The position numbers were made by a program, and so were the translations under genes. The notes beneath the pieces were generated by a model. That model was not told the origin of the DNA. It did no database searches and was given only the letters and a program-made list of their open reading frames with translations. From NCBI GenBank assembly GCA_026392465.1, contig JAPLCA010000016.1, positions 1 through 64,000 on the forward strand: a DNA stretch of 64,000 nt. Reading direction: 5' to 3'. Shown piece after piece: positions 21,569 to 38,281 of the stretch (its first letter is position 1; each line of letters starts with the position of its first letter). This stretch comes from Propionibacteriales bacterium. Lineage in GTDB: Bacteria; Actinomycetota; Actinomycetes; Propionibacteriales; Nocardioidaceae.

Positions 21569-21598
21569 TTGACAACGATTCTCATTCTTGTCTAAGGT
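21569..21598 (+). promoter_or_regulatory. Promoter of the metal-transporter operon with Fur/Zur-family box
   Basis: TTGACA (21569-21574), an 18-bp spacer and TAAGGT (21593-21598) fit an actinobacterial sigma-70-type promoter (TANNNT -10). TGACAACGATTCTCA (21570-21584) overlaps the -35 and spacer. It is a 7-1-7 dyad with five of seven pairs symmetric and differs at 4 of 15 positions from the common Zur-type core TGAAAATCATTTTCA. A wider 22-nt dyad GACAA...TTGTC spans 21571-21592. Repressor binding would block polymerase; zinc- or manganese-dependent repression is inferred from the downstream genes. Confidence 0.7.
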
Positions 21599-21737: not shown

Positions 21738-22298
21738 ATGTCCTCTGCACGTCTCATCACCGCCGTCCTCGCCGGTGGAGCAGCCTCCGTGGCATTCAGC
21801 CTCCCCGCCCACGCCGAGACGGCCATCCCGGCCGGCCACAACGACGTGGTCGAGCTCGAGTGCACCGACGCCGGCGGCACGGCGAGCTACGAGCTCGGCA
21901 GCCACCTCGGCGGCCAGCACGTGTCCCCCGCCGACATCGGCAACCACCGGGCGACGTTCCCGGCGTCCAGCGCCGGCGTCAGCTACACCGGCGGCGCCTG
22001 GGTCGTCGACGCCGACCTCGACTCCTCCCTGCCCGACCTCGGCTTCAGCTACGAGGTGGCCGCCGGGGCCGAGAGCGTCTGCGCCGACTCCGTCTCCATC
22101 ACGCTCGACTCGGGCGTGACGTTCGGCGGCTCGTCGACCGTGACCCTCACGCAGGCTGCCGACCACGTGCACGGCGAGTGGCGTCTGCCCGCGGCCAGCG
22201 CCACCGCGACGAACTACGCGGTGAGCCTCGACGTCGAGACCGGTGACGGCGCCTTCGCCGAGACCCTCTCGCCGCTGAACATCACGGCCGGCTCCTGA
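21738..22298 (+). CDS. Secreted protein at the head of the metal-transport operon
   Basis: A 186-residue protein with a signal peptide (LITAVLAGGAASVAFSLPAHA) and a beta-rich mature domain containing two Cys (LECTDAGG and ESVCADS). I do not recognise the family; the pattern looks like an Ig-like extracellular domain. ATG 21738 has a clear GAAGGAG ribosome site. It is the first gene after the Zur-like promoter and is followed by a strong hairpin before the large surface-repeat gene, so it is probably the most highly expressed product of the operon. A metal-scavenging or scaffold role is inference only. Confidence 0.7.
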   Translation: MSSARLITAVLAGGAASVAFSLPAHAETAIPAGHNDVVELECTDAGGTASYELGSHLGGQHVSPADIGNHRATFPASSAGVSYTGGAWVVDADLDSSLPDLGFSYEVAAGAESVCADSVSITLDSGVTFGGSSTVTLTQAADHVHGEWRLPAASATATNYAVSLDVETGDGAFAETLSPLNITAGS

Positions 22299-22367: not shown

Positions 22368-25300
22368 ATGCGCTCGTCCCTCCGGCTCCCCGCGACCGCC
22401 CTCGTCACGGCCCTCACGGCCTGCCTGGTCGGGCTCACCCTGTCCGCCGTGCCGACCGTCGCCGCCGACGGCTCGGTCGCCACCGGCAAGCACGTGCTCC
22501 GCACCGTCAAGACCGCGGACGGTGGCATCGCGCTCGACTGGGTCACGCCGCCGACCGCACCGACGTTCCGGATCGGCGACGCGACGTCCTACGAGCTGCC
22601 CGACACCCCGGCGCACCGGACGCTCGGCACCCCTGGGGAGCGCGCCTGGATCAGCGGGTCCACGACCGACGACAGCGTGGCGCCCTCGGTCGCGCTCTCC
22701 TACACCGCGCGCGCGGCGGGCGACCCGACGCTGACCTACCGCATCGACGACGTCGTCGCCCCGGCGGGCGGCACGTACCAGACCTACCGCTACGACTACA
22801 GCCAGCCGTGGAGCGGGCTGGCCCGACCGCTCCTGACCCACGACGAGTTCGCGTTCCTGACGCCGATGGGCACGGGACGTGGCGCCGACGGCACCGAGCA
22901 GTCGCGCGAGGGCGAGCTGAAGACGGCGAGGAACACCACCGGTGGTCTCGTGGGCCACTGGGTGCACCGGTTCACCCGACCCGGCCTCTACTGCGTGTCG
23001 CTCTCGGTCGAGGGCACCTTGTCGACGATGACCGCCCGCGCCCGGAGCGCACGGGTGACGCTGCGCTTCGCCGTCGGCGACACCGTGCCCGACGACGCCG
23101 CGTGCGGGACGTCGGCCAGCGGCCCCACCCCTGAGCCGACGCCGGACCCGACCGACGAGCCCAGCCCGGAACCGACCCCCGGCCCGACGGTCGAGCCGAC
23201 CCCCGAGCCGACTCCCGGACCGACGCCTGAGCCCACCCCTGAGCCCGAGGACCCGACGTACGTCATGCGCAGCGGTCACGCCGACGTGGTCGCGCCGCGG
23301 ATCGTCGGCGACACCGACCGTCGCCTCGTGCTCGACGCCTCGGTCGACGGTCACGGGCGCGTGCCGTACCGCGACCTGGTCGTCGTCCACCCCGACCTGC
23401 TCCGCACCACGGTGCCGTCCGGCGACGACTGGGCCTTCCTCGGGACACCCGGACAGCCGCTGTGGAACAGCCCGCAGTCGTCGGGCTCCGTCGAGGGCGG
23501 GACGAAGGCGTTCCCGTGGATCGGCAGCAGCTCCGAGGACGACGCCCTCGTGGCCAACGGCCGCCGCACCGACATGGCGATCGAGCAGGTCACCGGTCCC
23601 GACGGCGGACGCCCGCCCGGCGACCTCTCGATCTGGACCGGCTCCTCCAGCCCGTACGTGCTGGTGAGCACGCGCGGCGGCGTCCTCCCGTCCGGTACTC
23701 CGGCCGTGCTCTCGGCGGCGAGCGTCCGCAACCACGCCCACTACAACTGGTCGTTCAGCGCACCTGGCGTGTACTGCCTCGCCGTGTCGGCGCAGACCGA
23801 GATCGGCGGCGACCTGCAGGTCCGTCGTGACTGGCTGACCATGGTCGTCGGCGACGCCGTCGACGCCGACCGGGTGGCTCCGTGCGCCCGCCGTCTGCCG
23901 CCGCCCACCGAGCCGGCCCCCGGGCCGACGGAGCTGACGTCGGGCACCGGCCCGCACGTCGTCACCGACGACGGCCACGTGTCGCTGCACCCGACGACGA
24001 ACGCCGGCATCGCCGCGGCCTCGTGGAACACGGCGCGTCAGCGTCCGGTCGCCTACACCCGGCTCGACGACACCGTCGTGCACCTGCGCAACCCCACGGT
24101 GCGCAGCTACCTCGACTCCCTGCAGCTGCTGTCGACCCGGACCCTGCGGCTCGACACGCTCGGGGTCCCTGCGTCCGACGGCGGCGAGACGGTCGAGCTC
24201 GTGCGCATGCGCGGCCCGGGGCCCCTGCACCTCGACGACGCCCGCTCCGAGGACGCCGACCGGGCACCGCGCACGCTGCGCCCGCGTGAGGAGACGGTGC
24301 AGGGCGTGCGGGTGCAGGCGTCGCTGCCTGGGCGCTACTGCGTCGACCTGCGCTGGACGAACGGTCGCGGCGAGCGTCGCGACACGACCCTGACGCTGGT
24401 GATCGACGGACCCGTGCGGCCCTCGGACCCCGAGAGCCCGTGGTGGCGGGCGGCCGAGCACGGCGCGCTGGGCACGACGTGCGCCGCTGGCGCCGACCCG
24501 GAGGGGCCCTCCGACCCCGAGCCGGAGCCGGAGCCCACGCCCACGCCGTCCCCGACGAGCCCCACGCCGACGAGCAGCCCGACCCCGCCGGTCGACGACA
24601 AGGACCCGGTCTACGACGCGCCGAACGGCTGGCGCAACGACGCAGGCGCGACGATCATCGACGAGGGTCACGTCGACCTCGCCTCGCGTGTGCTCCGCGG
24701 CGCGCTGACCACCCACGTGAAGGACAGTGCGACCGGTCGCGACGTCACCTGGCGCTCGCCCGGCTCGACGGTGCTGCACGTCGGTCGGCAGGCGGCGCAG
24801 CGCATCCCCGCCGGCGCCAACCTCGCGTTCCTCGGCCGGGCCGGCGACCCCGTCTGGCTGGCGCCCGAGACCCAGGACGAGTCGATCGTGTGGCCGGGCT
24901 GGTCCACCGAGGCGATCCCGGACGGCACGCTGCGCGGCGGCGTGCGCTGGCGTCTGCTGCGCGCAAGCGGACCGGGCGAGATGGCCCTGTTCACGTCGGT
25001 GCCCAACGGCTTCGGCACCGTCGACGTCCGCTTCAACACGCGCGACGGCATCACCTCCGCCGACGCGTTCACCATCCCGCCGCGCACCCATGCGCACGGC
25101 ACGTGGGCCTTCAGCGCGGAGGGCGTGTACTGCCTCGACTCCGAGCGGACCGCGACGTCGGCGTCAGGGCGCACGCTGCGCCACCGGTTCACGCTCGCCG
25201 TGGCCGTCGGTCGCACCGACCTGCGCACCGTGGACCCGAAGGCCTGCTTCCGCACCGACGGCCGGCCGGGGACGGCGGACACCCGGCCCGTGCCCGACGC

Positions 25301-26546
25301 GTCGCTGACCGACGCCACGACCGGTGGTGTGCGGCTGCTCAACGGACGCGACGGACTCGTCCGCGGCTCTCAGGCGCTGCTGTCCGTGCCCGGCGTCGAC
25401 CCCGGCGAGTGGGTGTCGGTCTGGCTGCACAGCCGACCGCGCTGGCTCGGCTGGGCCCAGGTCGACGCGTCCGGCTCGCTGCGCGTCCGGATGCCCGCCG
25501 ACGCCCGCACCGGCGACCACCGGCTGGTGGTCAAGCGTCGCTCCGGCGAGCTCGTCGGCTGGGACCACGTGACGCTCACGGCCGCACCCCGCGTGCCGAC
25601 CGCACCCCGACCGGGTGGCTCGGGCGGGCCCGGCGACGGCGGGTCCGGGGCGGGCGGCCCGGGAGCGCGTGCCGCGCTCGCCGCAGGTCAGACCTGCGTG
25701 CCGCAGCGCGCGACGGTGATCTCGTCCGGGCACGTCGACTACGCCACGCGTCTCGTCGGTGGCCGCCTGCGGTCGCTCGTCGGGACCGACGGCTCCGGCG
25801 CGAAGGTCTACCGCGACCCGAAGGACGTCGTGCTGTGGGTGAAGCCCGGGAGCAAGGTCCGGCTCCCCGCCGGGCTGGGTGCCGTGGGCCGCGCGGGCAG
25901 CTCGATCTACCAGGTGCCCCAGACCCAGGTGCAGGACCTCGTCTGGCTCGGCTGGAACACCGAGAGCCTCGACACGAGCCAGGTCCGCGGATCCGTCCGG
26001 TGGCGGCTCGACTCGGTCCGGGGTCCGGGGAGCCTGCGCGTCTACACCGCGGGCACGTTCGGCGGCGTCGAGCGCATGGTCTTCGACGGCCCCGGCACGA
26101 CGAGCATCCCGCTCGGCGTCCACGCGCACGCCAACTGGGCCTTCAGCAGGCCGGGCTTCTACCGCGTCGCCTTCACCCAGCAGGCGACCCGCGCCGACGG
26201 GAAGGTCGTGTCGGACCGCTCGACGCTCACCTTCGCGGTGGGCGACGTGAACCCGGCGGCGGCCGCGTCCGGCGGCGGCTGCGGAGCGCTCCCCCAGTCC
26301 GACGTCGCGAGCGAGGACCGCACGCTCGAGGAGTCCGCCGAGGCAGCCGCGCAGGACCGCGCCGAGGCGGCCGCGGTCGCCCGCGGGCTCGTGCCGGAGT
26401 CCGACGACGGGGCCGCCGACCGCGTGCTCGCCGCCCTCGAGAAGGGGCCGGTCAGGCTGCTGCTCGGGGTGCTCGGCGGGCTGCTGCTCGCGACGGCGGC
26501 CGGCGCACTCTGGTGGCGCCGACGCTTCCACGGGACGGCCACGTGA
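22368..26546 (+). CDS. Large surface-anchored repeat protein (choice-of-anchor M / anchored-repeat family)
   Basis: A 1392-residue surface protein: signal peptide, five copies of the actinobacterial surface-anchored repeat (roughly residues 30-250, 300-510, 530-700, 755-960 and 1130-1320), and a C-terminal membrane segment LLLGVLGGLLLATAAGALWW followed by RRRF. Repeat landmarks are GHVD at the start, FLG..G then a LPQTQ-like stretch, HAHANWAFS and a closing LTFAVGD. Linkers are Pro-rich (PTPEPTPD; PEPTPTPSPTS). An Ig-like domain with GEWVSVWLHSRPRWLGW separates repeats 4 and 5. There is no LPXTG, so anchoring is by the membrane helix. It overlaps the next gene by GTGA. These repeats accompany a class of metal ABC transporters; a receptor or metal-relay role is inferred. 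Confidence 0.85.
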   Translation: MRSSLRLPATALVTALTACLVGLTLSAVPTVAADGSVATGKHVLRTVKTADGGIALDWVTPPTAPTFRIGDATSYELPDTPAHRTLGTPGERAWISGSTTDDSVAPSVALSYTARAAGDPTLTYRIDDVVAPAGGTYQTYRYDYSQPWSGLARPLLTHDEFAFLTPMGTGRGADGTEQSREGELKTARNTTGGLVGHWVHRFTRPGLYCVSLSVEGTLSTMTARARSARVTLRFAVGDTVPDDAACGTSASGPTPEPTPDPTDEPSPEPTPGPTVEPTPEPTPGPTPEPTPEPEDPTYVMRSGHADVVAPRIVGDTDRRLVLDASVDGHGRVPYRDLVVVHPDLLRTTVPSGDDWAFLGTPGQPLWNSPQSSGSVEGGTKAFPWIGSSSEDDALVANGRRTDMAIEQVTGPDGGRPPGDLSIWTGSSSPYVLVSTRGGVLPSGTPAVLSAASVRNHAHYNWSFSAPGVYCLAVSAQTEIGGDLQVRRDWLTMVVGDAVDADRVAPCARRLPPPTEPAPGPTELTSGTGPHVVTDDGHVSLHPTTNAGIAAASWNTARQRPVAYTRLDDTVVHLRNPTVRSYLDSLQLLSTRTLRLDTLGVPASDGGETVELVRMRGPGPLHLDDARSEDADRAPRTLRPREETVQGVRVQASLPGRYCVDLRWTNGRGERRDTTLTLVIDGPVRPSDPESPWWRAAEHGALGTTCAAGADPEGPSDPEPEPEPTPTPSPTSPTPTSSPTPPVDDKDPVYDAPNGWRNDAGATIIDEGHVDLASRVLRGALTTHVKDSATGRDVTWRSPGSTVLHVGRQAAQRIPAGANLAFLGRAGDPVWLAPETQDESIVWPGWSTEAIPDGTLRGGVRWRLLRASGPGEMALFTSVPNGFGTVDVRFNTRDGITSADAFTIPPRTHAHGTWAFSAEGVYCLDSERTATSASGRTLRHRFTLAVAVGRTDLRTVDPKACFRTDGRPGTADTRPVPDASLTDATTGGVRLLNGRDGLVRGSQALLSVPGVDPGEWVSVWLHSRPRWLGWAQVDASGSLRVRMPADARTGDHRLVVKRRSGELVGWDHVTLTAAPRVPTAPRPGGSGGPGDGGSGAGGPGARAALAAGQTCVPQRATVISSGHVDYATRLVGGRLRSLVGTDGSGAKVYRDPKDVVLWVKPGSKVRLPAGLGAVGRAGSSIYQVPQTQVQDLVWLGWNTESLDTSQVRGSVRWRLDSVRGPGSLRVYTAGTFGGVERMVFDGPGTTSIPLGVHAHANWAFSRPGFYRVAFTQQATRADGKVVSDRSTLTFAVGDVNPAAAASGGGCGALPQSDVASEDRTLEESAEAAAQDRAEAAAVARGLVPESDDGAADRVLAALEKGPVRLLLGVLGGLLLATAAGALWWRRRFHGTAT

Positions 26547-28099
26547 GACCGACCTCCCTCGCGACGCTCGCGCTGGCGGCGTCGTTGGCGGTCACCTCCT
26601 GCGCTCCCCCGCCGCGGTTGTCCGACCAGGACGGGCGGGTGCAGGTGGTGACCACCACGGGCCTGCTGCGCGACCTCGTGCAGCAGGTCGGCGGCGACCG
26701 GGTGAACGTCGTCTCGATCGTCCCCGACGGCGCCGACCCGCACTCGTTCGAGCCGACCCTGCGGTCGGCGCGCGACGCCGCCTACGCCGATGCCGCGTTC
26801 AGCAACTACGCGCTGCTGGAGGAGCACGCCGTCGTCAAGGTGCTCGACGCCAACATCGACGCCGACGCCCCCAACGTCGCCCTGGCGGAGGGGGCCACGA
26901 AGTACGCCGCCGAGGTCATCCCGCTCGTGGAGAACCTGCGCCTCGACACGCCGTGGCTGGGGCTGCGCTCGATCGGCGACGGCGCGGCCTTCGACGCCGA
27001 CCGGGCGTCGCAGGTGCGCCTGTCGGCGACGGCCGCGACGGGACCGGGCGACGTCTGGGCCTACCTGACCGGCACGTTCGGCGACACGACGGTGACGTTC
27101 GGGTCCGCCGACGGGTTCGACGACGAGGACACCGCGGTGCTGCCGCTCGACGCCCACACCCACATGTCGTGGGCCTTCACCGAGCCGGGCATCTACCGGC
27201 TGCGCTTCGAGGCGGCCCTGCAGGTCGACGAGGACGGCCCCGAGGTCCCGCGCGGTACCGGGACGCTCACCTTCGCCGTCGGGGTCGACCCCGCGCGCGC
27301 CGGGGTCGACGACGCCGTCGTGGTCGACGGTGGTCACGCCGACCTCGCCGCCGACGTCGACACCGGCCGTCTCGTGGTCCGCCACGACCCGGACGGCGGG
27401 GGCGATCACAGCCAGCGCACCCTGCCGCTCGAGGACGTCGTCGTCGAGGTGCCGACCAAGGCGCTCTCCGAGGTGCCGGCCGAGCGCAGCCTGCGGTTCC
27501 TCGGCCGCCCCGGCACGGAGGTGTACCAGCTGCCGCAGGCGGTGCTCGGCAAGCACGTGCACGGGGAGATCGACCCCCACCTGTGGCACGACGTCCGCAA
27601 CGTCATGGCCTACGTGCAGCTCGTCCGCGACACCCTCGTCGACGTCGACCCGGCCGGTGCCCCCGTGTACCGCGCCCGCACCCGGGACTACCTGCGCGAG
27701 CTGGACCGGCTCGACGCCACGATGCGCCGCGCGGTCGCCAGCATCCCGGCGTCGCGACGCCACCTCGTCACCTCGCACGACGCGTTCGGCTACCTCGCGA
27801 AGGCCTACGGCCTGAAGGTGTCGGGCTTCGTGACCCCGCACCCCGGCATCGAGCCGTCGCTCGCCGACCGCCGCCGGCTCGCGCGCACGATCGCCGACCT
27901 CGACGTGCCGGCCGTGTTCCTCGAGCCGAACCTGCGAGCCCGTTCCAGCACGCTCATCGACGTCGCGCGCGAGCAGCACGTGAAGGTCTGCCCCCTCTAC
28001 GGCGACGCGTTCGACGCCACGGTGCGCAGCTACGCACAGCTCGTGCGCCACAACGCCCGCTCCCTCGTCCAGTGCCTCGCACCCCAGGAGAACCCGTGA
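26543..28099 (+). CDS. Anchored-repeat ABC transporter, metal substrate-binding lipoprotein with inserted repeat
   Basis: A 518-residue ZnuA-like (cluster A-I) substrate-binding protein. The lipobox AVTSC gives Cys20. The N lobe (31-130) has DPHSFEPT with metal ligand His67; the C lobe (from ~335) has EIDPHLWHD (His346), SHDAFGYL and VFLEPNL, the remaining ligands. Residues about 131-335 are an insertion made of a surface-anchored repeat in permuted order: its second half (PWLGLRS through HTHMSWAF to LTFAVG) comes before its first half (GGHADLAADV to FLGRPGTEVYQLPQ). GTG 26543 overlaps the preceding stop (GTGA). It should deliver zinc or manganese to the adjacent permease. Confidence 0.88.
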   Translation: MRPTSLATLALAASLAVTSCAPPPRLSDQDGRVQVVTTTGLLRDLVQQVGGDRVNVVSIVPDGADPHSFEPTLRSARDAAYADAAFSNYALLEEHAVVKVLDANIDADAPNVALAEGATKYAAEVIPLVENLRLDTPWLGLRSIGDGAAFDADRASQVRLSATAATGPGDVWAYLTGTFGDTTVTFGSADGFDDEDTAVLPLDAHTHMSWAFTEPGIYRLRFEAALQVDEDGPEVPRGTGTLTFAVGVDPARAGVDDAVVVDGGHADLAADVDTGRLVVRHDPDGGGDHSQRTLPLEDVVVEVPTKALSEVPAERSLRFLGRPGTEVYQLPQAVLGKHVHGEIDPHLWHDVRNVMAYVQLVRDTLVDVDPAGAPVYRARTRDYLRELDRLDATMRRAVASIPASRRHLVTSHDAFGYLAKAYGLKVSGFVTPHPGIEPSLADRRRLARTIADLDVPAVFLEPNLRARSSTLIDVAREQHVKVCPLYGDAFDATVRSYAQLVRHNARSLVQCLAPQENP

Positions 28100-29085
28100 T
28101 GCCCTCCACCCGTCCCAGCGGTGGCCCGCGCCCGTCCCACCCCGCCTCCAGGAGGAGCCTGTGGCGGCTGGCCGCCCTGGCGGTCGTCCTGGTGGCGCTC
28201 GTCCCGTCGGGCGCGACCGCCACGGACGACCCCGACCTGCGCCAGACCGTGCGTGGCGACGACCCCGTCGTCACCGACGTGAAGGTGCTCGAGGGCGGCC
28301 ACGTCGACCTCGGGCCCACCTACGTCGACGGCGCGTGGCGCTTCCTCGTCCACGACGACACCGCGAAGGCCGACCCGTCGAAGCAGAGCACCTGGCGCCT
28401 GCCGGACAAGACGGTGTTCGCCGTGCCGGACGCCGTCCGCCTTCCCGCCCCCGACGACCCGACGTACGCGTTCCTCGGCGCGAAGCCGGGCAGCACCGTG
28501 TGGGCGCTGCCGCAGACGCAGGCGGCCGACGCCCCCTGGGTCGGCTGGAACACCCAGGAGCCGCGGGTCATGGAGACGATCGACCGCGGCATGACGCTGC
28601 GGCTCGAGGGCGTCCAGGGTCCCGGCCGGATGGTCACCTACCTGCAGTCCGGCTCGTTCGAGGAGCCGGAGGTGCTGTGGACGTCGGCGAAGGACGCCCG
28701 CCAGGACTTCTTCGTCGACGTGAACACGCACACCCACGCGAACTGGGTGTTCACGGTGCCGGGCGTCTACCTCGTCCGCGTCAGCGCGATCGCCGACCTC
28801 GTCGGTGGCGGCACCGCCACCGACACCCAGGTGCTGCGGTTCGCGGTCGGCGACGACACGAGCCCGCAGGAGGCGCTCGCCGCCACGTGGCGCGGCAGCA
28901 CGCAGGCACCTGGCTCCACCACCGACACGGCCGCCGCGCCGACGAGCGACGACGGTGTCCTCGTGACGGTGCTCGTCGTGGCCATCGCCGCGCTGGTCGT
29001 GCTGCTCGTCGTCGGAGCCGTCGTGGCCGTCGTCCGGCTGCGCGGACAGCGTCGCCGGGCGCTCGGCGGGACGGACGTCGCATGA
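28099..29085 (+). CDS. Membrane-anchored single-repeat surface protein
   Basis: A 328-residue protein with a basic N-terminus and signal segment (LAALAVVLVALVPSGATA), one surface-anchored repeat (about 60-255; EGGHVDLGPTYVDG, FLGAKPGSTVWALPQTQ, WVGWNTQEP, HTHANWVFTVPGVYLVR, LRFAVGDD) and a C-terminal helix VLVVAIAALVVLLVVGAVVAVV ahead of basic residues. The ATG at 28099 overlaps the TGA of the binding-protein gene by one base; the in-frame GTG just before is an alternative. It shares the repeat of the large surface protein, so the two likely occupy the same envelope complex. Confidence 0.85.
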   Translation: MPSTRPSGGPRPSHPASRRSLWRLAALAVVLVALVPSGATATDDPDLRQTVRGDDPVVTDVKVLEGGHVDLGPTYVDGAWRFLVHDDTAKADPSKQSTWRLPDKTVFAVPDAVRLPAPDDPTYAFLGAKPGSTVWALPQTQAADAPWVGWNTQEPRVMETIDRGMTLRLEGVQGPGRMVTYLQSGSFEEPEVLWTSAKDARQDFFVDVNTHTHANWVFTVPGVYLVRVSAIADLVGGGTATDTQVLRFAVGDDTSPQEALAATWRGSTQAPGSTTDTAAAPTSDDGVLVTVLVVAIAALVVLLVVGAVVAVVRLRGQRRRALGGTDVA

Positions 29086-33905: not shown

Positions 33906-33983
33906 CACGTCACGGCAGGACCCCCGACCAGAACGCACAGGACCCCCGACCTCGCGAGAGGTCGGGGGTCCTGCCGTGACGTG
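33906..33983. repeat. Nested, mutually exclusive hairpins
   Basis: CACGTCACGGCAGGACCCCC at 33906 (arm to 33929) pairs perfectly with the arm 33960-33983. A second copy of AGGACCCCCGACCTC at 33939-33953 pairs with GAGGTCGGGGGTCCT at 33958-33972. The right arm can therefore join either left partner. The element ends exactly at the GTG of the small HTH gene and may be a terminator or a recombination-related structure. Confidence 0.7.
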
Positions 33984-34250
33984 GACCTGATCACCAAGGT
34001 TTCGAAACATTCCCACGCCATCGATCGACTCCGTAGAGCCACCGATCAAGCCAGGAAACAGTGCCGTCCCGACTCATCATCAGCGGACACTCGCGCACAC
34101 AAACTACGCACCCGACTTGGTGGAGATGCCCTCAAGCAGATCATCGACGAGTACCTCGCTGGCGACAGCGCCCGCACTCTTGCAACACGGCACGGCATCT
34201 CCAGAACAGCGGTGCTGCGCGCCATCCGCAACGCGGGACGTCAATCATGA
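33981..34250 (+). CDS. Small helix-turn-helix protein, recombinase-type HTH
   Basis: An 89-residue protein. The last ~40 residues (GGDALKQIIDEYLAGDSART then LATRHGISRTAVLRAIRNAG) match the C-terminal HTH of resolvase/invertase-type serine recombinases; the catalytic domain is absent. The start is inferred as GTG 33981 because the N-terminal segment DLITKVSKHSHAIDRLRRA is duplicated in-frame at 36077-36143, with mostly synonymous or conservative changes. It lies between a hairpin element and the OLD-type gene. It may be a DNA-binding regulator or a recombinase remnant. Confidence 0.5.
   Translation: MDLITKVSKHSHAIDRLRRATDQARKQCRPDSSSADTRAHKLRTRLGGDALKQIIDEYLAGDSARTLATRHGISRTAVLRAIRNAGRQS
33984..34050 (+). 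repeat. 67-bp direct repeat, copy 1
   Basis: From GACCTGATCACCAAGG to CACCGATCAAG; matches 36077-36143 with 6 differences. It encodes the N-terminus of the small HTH protein. Together with copy 2 it flanks the OLD-type gene. Confidence 0.85.
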
Positions 34251-36053: not shown

Positions 36054-36068
36054 TGACAATCATTCTCA
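36054..36068. promoter_or_regulatory. Orphan Fur/Zur-family box
   Basis: TGACAATCATTCTCA, a 7-1-7 dyad with six of seven pairs symmetric and two differences from the Zur-type core TGAAAATCATTTTCA. It is closer to consensus than the box of the metal-transporter operon. It ends 3 bp before the ATG of a truncated HTH gene copy and lies 226 bp upstream of the OLD-type gene start on the other strand. No metal gene is adjacent, so function is uncertain. Confidence 0.45.
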
Positions 36069-36070
36069 AA

Positions 36071-36146
36071 ATGATGAACCTCATCGCCAAGATTTCGAAA
36101 CATCCCCACGCCATCGATCGGCTCCGTAGAGCCACCGATCAAGCTC
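36071..36146 (+). pseudogene. Truncated second copy of the small HTH gene
   Basis: ATG ATG AAC CTC ATC encodes MMNLIAKISKHPHAIDRLRR, matching the N-terminus of the small HTH protein at 33981. Similarity stops near 36146 where transposase-related sequence begins, so the HTH part is lost. The 67-bp core 36077-36143 is the second copy of the direct repeat. Confidence 0.6.
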
Positions 36147-36240
36147 AGGGCCAGCGCCGGGGACTGCTGCCCCGCCATGGCCGGACGCGTCGGTTGCTGG
36201 GCACGCAGAACCGACATCGTCACGATCGCCCGAGGCCGGC

Positions 36241-36769: not shown

Positions 36770-38281
36770 TCAGTCTGCCGTGGCCGCCGACGGACCAGCG
36801 GCGGCCTCGAGCGCGGCCGCGACCGCCTCGAACTCCGCCAGCGCTGCGGTGAGGTCGTCGACGATCTCGCGGGCGATGATCTCGGGGGCAGGCAGATTGT
36901 CCATGTCCTCGAGGGACTCATCGCGCAGCCAGGTGATGTCGAGGTTGACCTTATCGCGCGCAATCAGCTCGTCGTACCTGAACGACCGCCAGCGGCCGTC
37001 CTCGCCGGTCTCGACGCGCTCGTCACGATCTTTGCCCGGCAGGTAGCACTCGACGAACTCGTCGAGGTGGTGGCGACGCAGAGGCTTCTGCTTGAGCGTG
37101 AAGTGCTGGTTGGTCCGAAGGTCGTAGACCCACAGTTTGCGCGTCCACGGCTCCTCCGATGCGGGCTTCTTGTCGAAGAAGAGCACGTTCGCCTTCACGC
37201 CTTGGGCGTAGAAGATGCCCGTCGGGAGCCGCAGCAGTGTGTGGAGGTCGAAGTCCGCGAGGAGCTTGCGGCGCAAGGTCTCACCGGCTCCCCCCTCGAA
37301 CAGCACATTGTCCGGGAGCACCACGGCCGCGCGGCCGGGGATGTCCAGGATGGTCATGATGTGCTGCAGGAAGTTGAGCTGCTTGTTGGACGTCGTGACG
37401 ACGAAGTCCTGGCGCTCGATCTCGGTGTCCTCGCGCACCTCGCGGCCGTCGTCGCCGACCATGGTCAGAGACGACTTCCGGCCGAACGGTGGATTCGACA
37501 GCACCACTGACCAACGCTTCTCCTTGCCAGGATCTGCGATCAGGGCATCGCGGACGTCGATCAGCGAGTCGCCGTCGGCGGATCCGATGCCGTGCAGCAG
37601 CAGGTTCATCGCGGCGAGCCGGGCGGTACCGTCGACCAGCTCGTAACCGGTCGCAAACCTGTCGCGGAGGTGGTCTCGCTGGGTTGGTGTGAGGTTCTCC
37701 GCGCCCTCGGCGGCGTACTCGTGAGCCACCAGGAGGAAGCCGCCCGTGCCGCAGGCCGGGTCTACCACCGTGTCGTTGGGCGTTGGCTGGATGACGTCGA
37801 CGATGGCGTGGATCAGGTCGCGGGGAGTGAAGTACTGACCTGCACCGGAGCCCTTGTCCGAGGCCCCCTTGGAGAGCAACTCCTCGTAGGCGTCGCCCTT
37901 GATGTCGGTGCCGGAGGCAGACCAATGCTCCTGATCGATGAGGTCGACGATGAGTCGCTTGAGCTTGGCGGGGTCCTGGATCCGGTTCTGCGCCTTGCGG
38001 AAGATCGTGCCAAGGGTGCCGGGCTGCTGCGCAAGCCCTTGCAGGATGCGGGTGTACTCGAACTCGAGCTGAGTGCCTTCGGCGTCGAGGAGCCGCTGCC
38101 AGGAGTACTTTTCCGGCACGACCTGCTGAGGCTTGAGCTTCCGGGTCGCGCGCTCGTGCGCCATCTTGAGGAAGAGCAGGTAGGTCAGCTGCTCGGTGTA
38201 CTCGATGACACCGACACCGTCGTCCCGCAGGACATTGCAGTAGGACCACAGCTTGTCGACCAAGCGCCGCGAGTCAGACAT
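36770..38281 (-). CDS. hsdM: Type I restriction-modification DNA methyltransferase subunit
   Basis: A 503-residue N6-adenine methyltransferase. An HsdM N-terminal helical domain (LWSYCNVLRDDGVGVIEYTE) is followed by GQYFTPR (148-154), the AdoMet motif DPACGTGGF (174-182) and the catalytic NPPF (263-266). ATG 38281 (MSDSRRLVDK) is chosen because the family N-terminus begins there; it overlaps the end of the ENQ nuclease-like gene by 8 bases. It is last in the order hsdR-hsdS-mrr-like-ENQ-hsdM. With HsdS it methylates the host recognition sites; with HsdR it forms the restriction complex. Confidence 0.93.
   Translation of the reverse strand: MSDSRRLVDKLWSYCNVLRDDGVGVIEYTEQLTYLLFLKMAHERATRKLKPQQVVPEKYSWQRLLDAEGTQLEFEYTRILQGLAQQPGTLGTIFRKAQNRIQDPAKLKRLIVDLIDQEHWSASGTDIKGDAYEELLSKGASDKGSGAGQYFTPRDLIHAIVDVIQPTPNDTVVDPACGTGGFLLVAHEYAAEGAENLTPTQRDHLRDRFATGYELVDGTARLAAMNLLLHGIGSADGDSLIDVRDALIADPGKEKRWSVVLSNPPFGRKSSLTMVGDDGREVREDTEIERQDFVVTTSNKQLNFLQHIMTILDIPGRAAVVLPDNVLFEGGAGETLRRKLLADFDLHTLLRLPTGIFYAQGVKANVLFFDKKPASEEPWTRKLWVYDLRTNQHFTLKQKPLRRHHLDEFVECYLPGKDRDERVETGEDGRWRSFRYDELIARDKVNLDITWLRDESLEDMDNLPAPEIIAREIVDDLTAALAEFEAVAAALEAAAGPSAATAD

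Follow-up and report, generated by a model that had tools for sequence, protein, structure and literature searches.

Results

A substrate-binding protein split by a repeat domain

The window analysed in the present study is a stretch of 64,000 nucleotides from Propionibacteriales bacterium (Nocardioidaceae; assembly GCA_026392465.1, contig JAPLCA010000016.1, positions 1 to 64,000 of the forward strand). At 26543–28099 on its plus strand lies a gene with a GTG start whose product, hereafter the carrier, is by profile match a member of the TIGR03772 anchored-repeat substrate-binding proteins (E 2.7e-205; 682.6 bits, cut-off 350.45, over the whole profile, 1–486). The translation comprises 518 residues and has a lipoprotein-like start, with the lipobox-like VTSC at residues 17–20 judged by what we take to be the lipobox consensus. 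The nearest named relative among the records fetched, from Aeromicrobium sp. CnD17-E, is 97% identical.

The Pfam model ZnuA (PF01297) matched the carrier in two stretches (214.9 bits in total). The N-terminal ZnuA part, residues 34–117 (26642–26893, plus strand), holds the ligand H67 in DPHSFEP, and the C-terminal part (27572–28096, plus strand) holds H346 in DPHLW, H412 in HDAF and D488. These ligands were identified from alignments with TroA and AztC, the aligned TroA positions being, we presume, metal ligands of that protein, and alignment and model together predict that the carrier has the four-ligand ZnuA-fold site of cluster A-I carriers (ZnuA, TroA and AztC). All four residues were present in 26/26 members found with the family model, three of the four being partly selected there by the frame filter used (DPHxW, HDAF, DPHS[YF]).

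Between the two ZnuA parts, the whole repeat model NF038134 did not match in a single linear pass; instead, it matched in two passes, model positions 73–184 followed by 1–73. The second half of the repeat thus comes first, at residues 129–246 (26927–27280, plus strand; E 3.2e-18), with H205, H207 and W210. A linker between the original C and N ends of the repeat follows (27281–27319, plus strand), and the first half of the repeat then occupies residues 260–333 (27320–27541, plus strand; E 1.9e-8), with H265 and D267. By itself, the first-half match reached 35.5 bits, lower than the NF038134 cut-off of 55. The same model had seven matches in the genome of the window, all inside the carrier cluster. 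An earlier note on this DNA had proposed, from the letters and open reading frames, ZnuA-like ligands on both sides of an insert whose landmarks run in swapped order, and the normal order in the neighbouring surface proteins; its gene coordinates and landmark order were right, H67 and the other three ligands do flank the insert, and the neighbouring proteins contain four copies that follow the model in its normal order along its whole length or most of it, and a weak fifth over positions 32–184.

Rotation of the repeat in sequence and predicted structure

When rotation is allowed, the insert keeps the invariant residues and the strand order of NF038134, with HxH preceding HxD, the reverse of the normal repeat. 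With 173 normal repeats taken from related loci, a separate repeat model was built. Rotated models, with cuts at each eighth position and at positions 70–76, were scored on 86 inserts, on shuffled versions of these and on 40 normal repeats that had been held out. The insert of the window scored 99.9 bits with the swapped model (cut at 73) and 63.5 bits with the linear one, so that the comparison of a two-segment with a linear alignment, which the earlier note had put forward as a check, came out in favour of the swap. The best cut was at 70–76 in 74/86 inserts and at 8–24 in the other 12, and the model swapped at position 72 scored higher than the linear model in 70/86. All 40 held-out normal repeats scored best at rotation 0, and the shuffled inserts never exceeded 2.0 bits at any rotation tried.

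The swapped order, second half before first half, was found in 86/88 frames with both ZnuA parts, the remaining two being plain carriers without a repeat, and in all 108 collected carriers (102 distinct sequences). The first-half match ended at model position 70–71 in 107/108 carriers; the edge was less sharp for the second-half match, which in 17/108 began at or before position 70 or, in one of them, at 92. Among 299 other frames with repeat hits, from 4651 frames scanned, no swapped pair was found.

AlphaFold2 predicted the normal repeat with confidence (predicted local distance difference test [pLDDT] 95.3, predicted template modelling score [pTM] 0.90) and the carrier with fair quality (pLDDT 80.1, pTM 0.68). 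The repeat of the ZnuE-like protein encoded downstream of the carrier (28285–28848, plus strand; normal order, model 1–184) was used as the reference for the fold. A rotation scan of secondary structure in steps of 4 peaked at repeat residue 88 (203.2, compared with 112.9 unrotated), within the repeat loop 84–91. Predicted strands were present in both halves of the insert, and every strand of the repeat had a counterpart there; the structure prediction of the protein alone, also proposed in the earlier note, therefore gave the insert the secondary structure of the repeat, rotated. With the carrier model, the first Foldseek match was holo AztC (template modelling score [TM] 0.82 by target, over 490 columns), which implies a predicted carrier fold that is closed around the insert. 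Stretches of the carrier with a pLDDT below 50 were 1–7, 69–73, 95–113, 312–322 and 409–414 (mature numbering, full length minus 21). For the repeat, the sequence-profile search found no solved structure (one match, E 1.7), and Foldseek gave no match with E ≤0.001; among the matches listed, TM did not exceed 0.36 by query or 0.44 by target. As judged from sequence and predicted secondary structure, the circular permutation of the insert is real.

Position of the insert in the carrier

The alignment of the carrier with AztC is interrupted after carrier residue 117 and continues from 340/341, just before DPHxW. Counted back from the DPH histidine, which by our own reading is H138, the gap covers approximately AztC residues 110–132, nearly all of the D-loop (117–133). 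The D-loop of AztC comprises residues 117–133 and projects into AztD in a docking model, and its histidine residues are required for zinc transfer, as described in PMC7463823. In the carrier, a short histidine stretch, KHVHG (27551–27565, plus strand), stands just ahead of DPHLW. Many plain zinc carriers have a longer loop rich in histidine in this position, and a long one of this kind is present in the genome's second zinc carrier. H[VI]HG preceded DPHxW in all 108 family carriers, and H338 and H340 were kept in 26/26 family-model members, the window included. The best reading of the alignments and models is that the repeat was cut in the loop between the end of the strand VYQLPQ and the start of the strand WLG, where the new ends would be neighbours and would fit a carrier loop.

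Conservation, spread and relatives of the insert

Normal repeats (A3, n = 148) share G13, H14, D16, W93, G95, H157, H159, W162 and G168. Their counterparts in the insert, H205, H207, W210, H265 and D267, were kept in 26/26 family-model members, the window included; the motifs stood in order in all 108 carriers, and the four ligand-type residues were kept in all members read, down to 48% identity. The related loci L038–L117 had been fetched with HTH[MLV][SN]WAF or QAV[LI]GKHV as the best 80 of 435, so that their conservation is partly selected, whereas the 28 carriers found with the family model involved no such patterns, although TIGR03772 itself includes the insert and might therefore favour permuted members. 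The frame filter missed two of these 28 (L118 and L137), both of which were added later. The permuted order is a trait of every TIGR03772 sequence collected, and had in part been noticed before.

In trees of the complete rotated domains and of the two halves separately, built from every third locus and 45/219 surface repeats, the inserts formed a single clade (support 1.0, 0.955 and 1.0), and a single origin of the insert is the best reading of the sequences. Surface repeats, not ZnuE repeats, were nearest to the inserts at 60/60 nearest tips of 12 inserts in the three trees. An origin from ZnuE was also considered and is disfavoured, as the surface profile scored higher than the ZnuE profile in 86/86 inserts for each half, the surface profile having been built from 219 domains and the ZnuE profile from 84. 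An earlier sorting of neighbours, which had missed most ZnuE genes, pointed in the same direction. The simplest source of the insert would be a fragment of a tandem array that ran from the last part of one repeat into the first part of the following one. At the N junction, VIPLVE was compared with VYQLPQ as a possible duplicated strand, the scar of such a tandem repeat; this idea was rejected, as the 107 junctions had a mean score of −4.37, no better than that of shuffled ones (−4.1).

The family is patchy. It exceeded the cut-off in 27/393 genomes of the class and 6/396 of the phylum (the samples overlap), and in 2/13 same-genus genomes among those listed, the window's own included. Intermediate forms were not seen, in that no score fell between 174.8 and 521.5 bits in one sample or between 113.1 and 487.5 bits in the other, with at most three candidates scored per genome, so that misses are possible. 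Against TIGR03772, the N-terminal and C-terminal parts of the carrier alone scored 124.4 and 276.3 bits, approximately 400 together. Because the two parts together exceed the cut-off, the search should have revealed any close relative whose insert is linear or missing; distant ones could have escaped it.

Gene neighbourhood

The carrier gene lies behind a gene for a multi-repeat surface protein (TIGR03773; 22368–26546, plus strand) with a hydrophobic and basic C end. The NF038134 search found three repeats in the normal order in this protein, all on the plus strand, at 23265–23807 (model 2–168), 24657–25205 (model 2–183) and 25716–26240 (model 1–184). Its first repeat is degenerate (22539–23075, model 32–184; 30.1 bits, below the cut-off) and apparently lacks HxD. 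Downstream on the same strand follow the ZnuE-like membrane protein, which has a single repeat in the normal order (28099–29085), an ATP-binding cassette (ABC) ATPase (TIGR03771; 29082–29897, start approximate) and an ABC permease (TIGR03770; 29899–30777). TIGR03771, TIGR03770 and TIGR03773 all exceeded their cut-offs in these genes beside the carrier. The start of the carrier gene overlaps the end of the surface protein gene by 4 bases (26543–26546), and the ATG of the ZnuE-like gene and the stop codon of the carrier gene have one base in common (28097–28101); the overlaps at both ends suggest translational coupling.

The first gene after a Zur-like box ahead of the cluster encodes a small secreted protein with HND and HVH..W (21738–22298, plus strand). 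It was considered as a diverged repeat but gave no significant match to the repeat model, with 3.4 bits for its best domain; in the control, the best whole-sequence score was 3.1 among the 404 of 500 shuffles reported. Among the loci scanned with phmmer, a relative of this protein was found only in the Aeromicrobium locus L038.

Zur-like boxes and zinc

The box is a palindrome, TGACAACGATTCTCA, at 21570–21584, a candidate Zur site that we call Zur-like on the basis of what we take to be Zur consensus sequences. The genome (3.7 Mb) has three occurrences of the pattern TGANAAYSRTTNTCA, at 21570–21584 and 36054–36068 of the window and at 37150–37164 of contig 12. The box of contig 12 lies at the beginning of a classical znuA whose product has a His-rich loop, overlapping the initial codons of the longest frame of that gene (TTG start) just before the next ATG. 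This classical znuA is followed by an ATPase, a permease and a Fur-family-like frame (locus L146, 1610–4666), the Fur-family similarity of the last (E 7.7e-18) being below the family cut-off. The looser pattern TGANAANNNTTNTCA occurred 28 times, counted at whatever distance from the cluster, in 26/80 related loci, compared with 0, 0, 0, 1 and 0 times in five simulated sets, and was not found in the other 54. By its resemblance to the Zur consensus, the box ahead of the cluster would be bound by Zur, and the carrier may bind and import zinc, for which the shared box is indirect support.

The third palindrome (36054–36068) adjoins one copy of an 85-base repeat (36075–36159). The other copy, at 33982–34066, is 85% identical to it, and the two flank an AAA ATPase gene that is weakly similar to a defence ATPase (52.6 bits, cut-off 420).

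The homologous cluster of Corynebacterium diphtheriae is regulated by Zur, according to PMC6711530. In the same species, the text of PMC12445094 reports that the HxD and HxH histidines of ZnuE are required for the restoration of growth at low zinc, that those of ZnuG matter in growth tests, and that thermal shift assays show a response to zinc for ZnuE, ZnuF and ZnuG.

Discussion

Considering these results, we propose the following scenario as the probable one. One complete surface-repeat domain may have entered a ZnuA-fold carrier once, as a circular permutant, at the His-rich or docking loop. The insert, probably a zinc-binding domain, would hold zinc at H205, H207, H265 and D267 and pass it through the short stretch H338-V-H340 to the carrier site formed by H67, H346, H412 and D488. 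It would thus take over from the docking loop as a zinc donor within the carrier itself, receiving zinc from solution or from the related repeats of ZnuE and the surface proteins. As a more tentative extension, which we regard as possible rather than probable, zinc may move along a bucket chain from the surface and ZnuE repeats to their permuted sister copy, then to the two histidines and the carrier site, the permutation serving to turn the site of the domain towards the carrier cleft.

The earlier note had suggested another role, in which the permuted copy could dock to, or swap strands with, the normal repeats and so bring the carrier to the surface receptor. On this reading the carrier would be tethered to the repeats of ZnuE or the surface proteins, and a zinc relay could be secondary. 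The gene order is consistent with this: at least one other repeat frame was present in all 80 loci, and another repeat frame followed the carrier on the same strand in 79/80, the exception being L041, where the contig ends after the carrier. However, strand exchange is not needed, because the insert has a counterpart of every strand of the repeat and no strand would have to be borrowed, and the nearest relatives of the inserts in the trees are the surface repeats, not ZnuE. We consider docking as the main role rather unlikely. More of the evidence agrees with a relay that replaces the docking loop than with docking to the repeats, and the two are compatible with each other. A passive role, with the insert as a spacer or stability element and the permutation merely allowing insertion into a loop, seems to us somewhat less likely again. 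It would agree with a nearly clean cut in a loop without visible loss, and with an N junction showing no sign of a duplicated strand; a spacer would, however, be expected to lose the four ligand-type residues, which persist even in the most divergent members read.

It is very improbable that no permuted domain exists, and that two unrelated half-repeats or an alignment artefact gave rise to the pattern. The first-half match alone does fall below the family cut-off, and the swapped model was not better than the linear one in 16/86 inserts when the best single stretch was scored, a result that we think is explained by the linker splitting the match. Conversely, the rotation scan with its shuffles and held-out repeats, the single insert clade recovered from each half alone, the strand order matching after rotation and the lack of swapped pairs in the 299 other repeat-hit frames all argue for one rotated domain.

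Like those 16 inserts, several other results weigh against the scenario that we favour. The five models of the carrier varied in mean pLDDT (80.1, 80.1, 76.1, 67.3 and 67.3), and both junctions of the insert (95–113 and 312–322, mature numbering) lay below 50. HxH and HxD come from opposite halves, so that a single site made of both would require the two halves to pack against each other, and the covariation between the halves is weak. By direct coupling analysis, the half-linking pairs of normal repeats covaried slightly more in the inserts (p 0.003, 0.013 and 0.0008 for the top 20, 40 and 80 pairs), and by corrected mutual information the same pairs did hardly more so (0.048, 0.061 and 0.36), in both cases with pairs that are not independent and an effective number of inserts of approximately 55. 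In the 22 plain carriers, which came from 22 of 27 control loci, at least two histidines stood in the 14 residues before [DN]PHxW in 12 and none in 8, and HxH stood exactly at the place of H338 and H340 in five; this stretch need not be peculiar to insert-bearing carriers. Furthermore, PMC12445094 reports that ZnuE of C. diphtheriae with histidines changed to alanine still shifted with zinc, that the role of the HxD/HxH motif in binding is, in its authors' words, unclear, and that deletion of znuA had a modest effect and that of znuE a strong one.

ZnuA of C. diphtheriae (dip0438, earlier troA) belongs to the same family, TIGR03772, as the carrier of the window, and its HxD/HxH motif was described in 2025 as being in reverse orientation with 45 residues between (PMC12445094). 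In what it states on ZnuA, that paper describes the order of the motif but neither a permuted domain nor an insertion site, nor a rule for the whole family, and its main text has no word beginning with 'permut' or 'insert'. The choice-of-anchor M proteins (NF038134), the TIGR03769 and TIGR03773 proteins, ZnuE, ZnuF, ZnuG and CmrA have by profile the same domain with the same HxD and HxH. In those proteins the domain is in the normal order, single or in series, whereas in the carrier it is permuted and lies within another domain. AztC, which works with the metallochaperone AztD, shares with the carrier its fold and the zinc-receiving position in the chain; where the carrier has a predicted folded domain, AztC has a flexible loop with three histidines that enters the AztD propeller in the published docking model. 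AdcA resembles the carrier in that its ZnuA-type carrier part is fused with a further domain linked to zinc, but this ZinT-like domain is at the C end, and the N domain alone suffices for import (PMC7858048). Insertion combined with circular permutation is already known from some RNA polymerase insertions (PMC13114784). In the open-licence literature searched, no description of a permuted carrier domain was found, nor did the searches aimed at permuted inserted domains find one in a metal ABC carrier.

How zinc passes across the thick Gram-positive wall to the carrier is an open question. The permuted domain would explain the reverse order of the motif reported in ZnuA of C. diphtheriae. The carrier is also a natural case of insertion together with circular permutation, for which the unpermuted relatives in the same cluster serve as controls. 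A copy of a wall-protein domain inside the docking site of the carrier makes direct hand-over of zinc testable with single domains.

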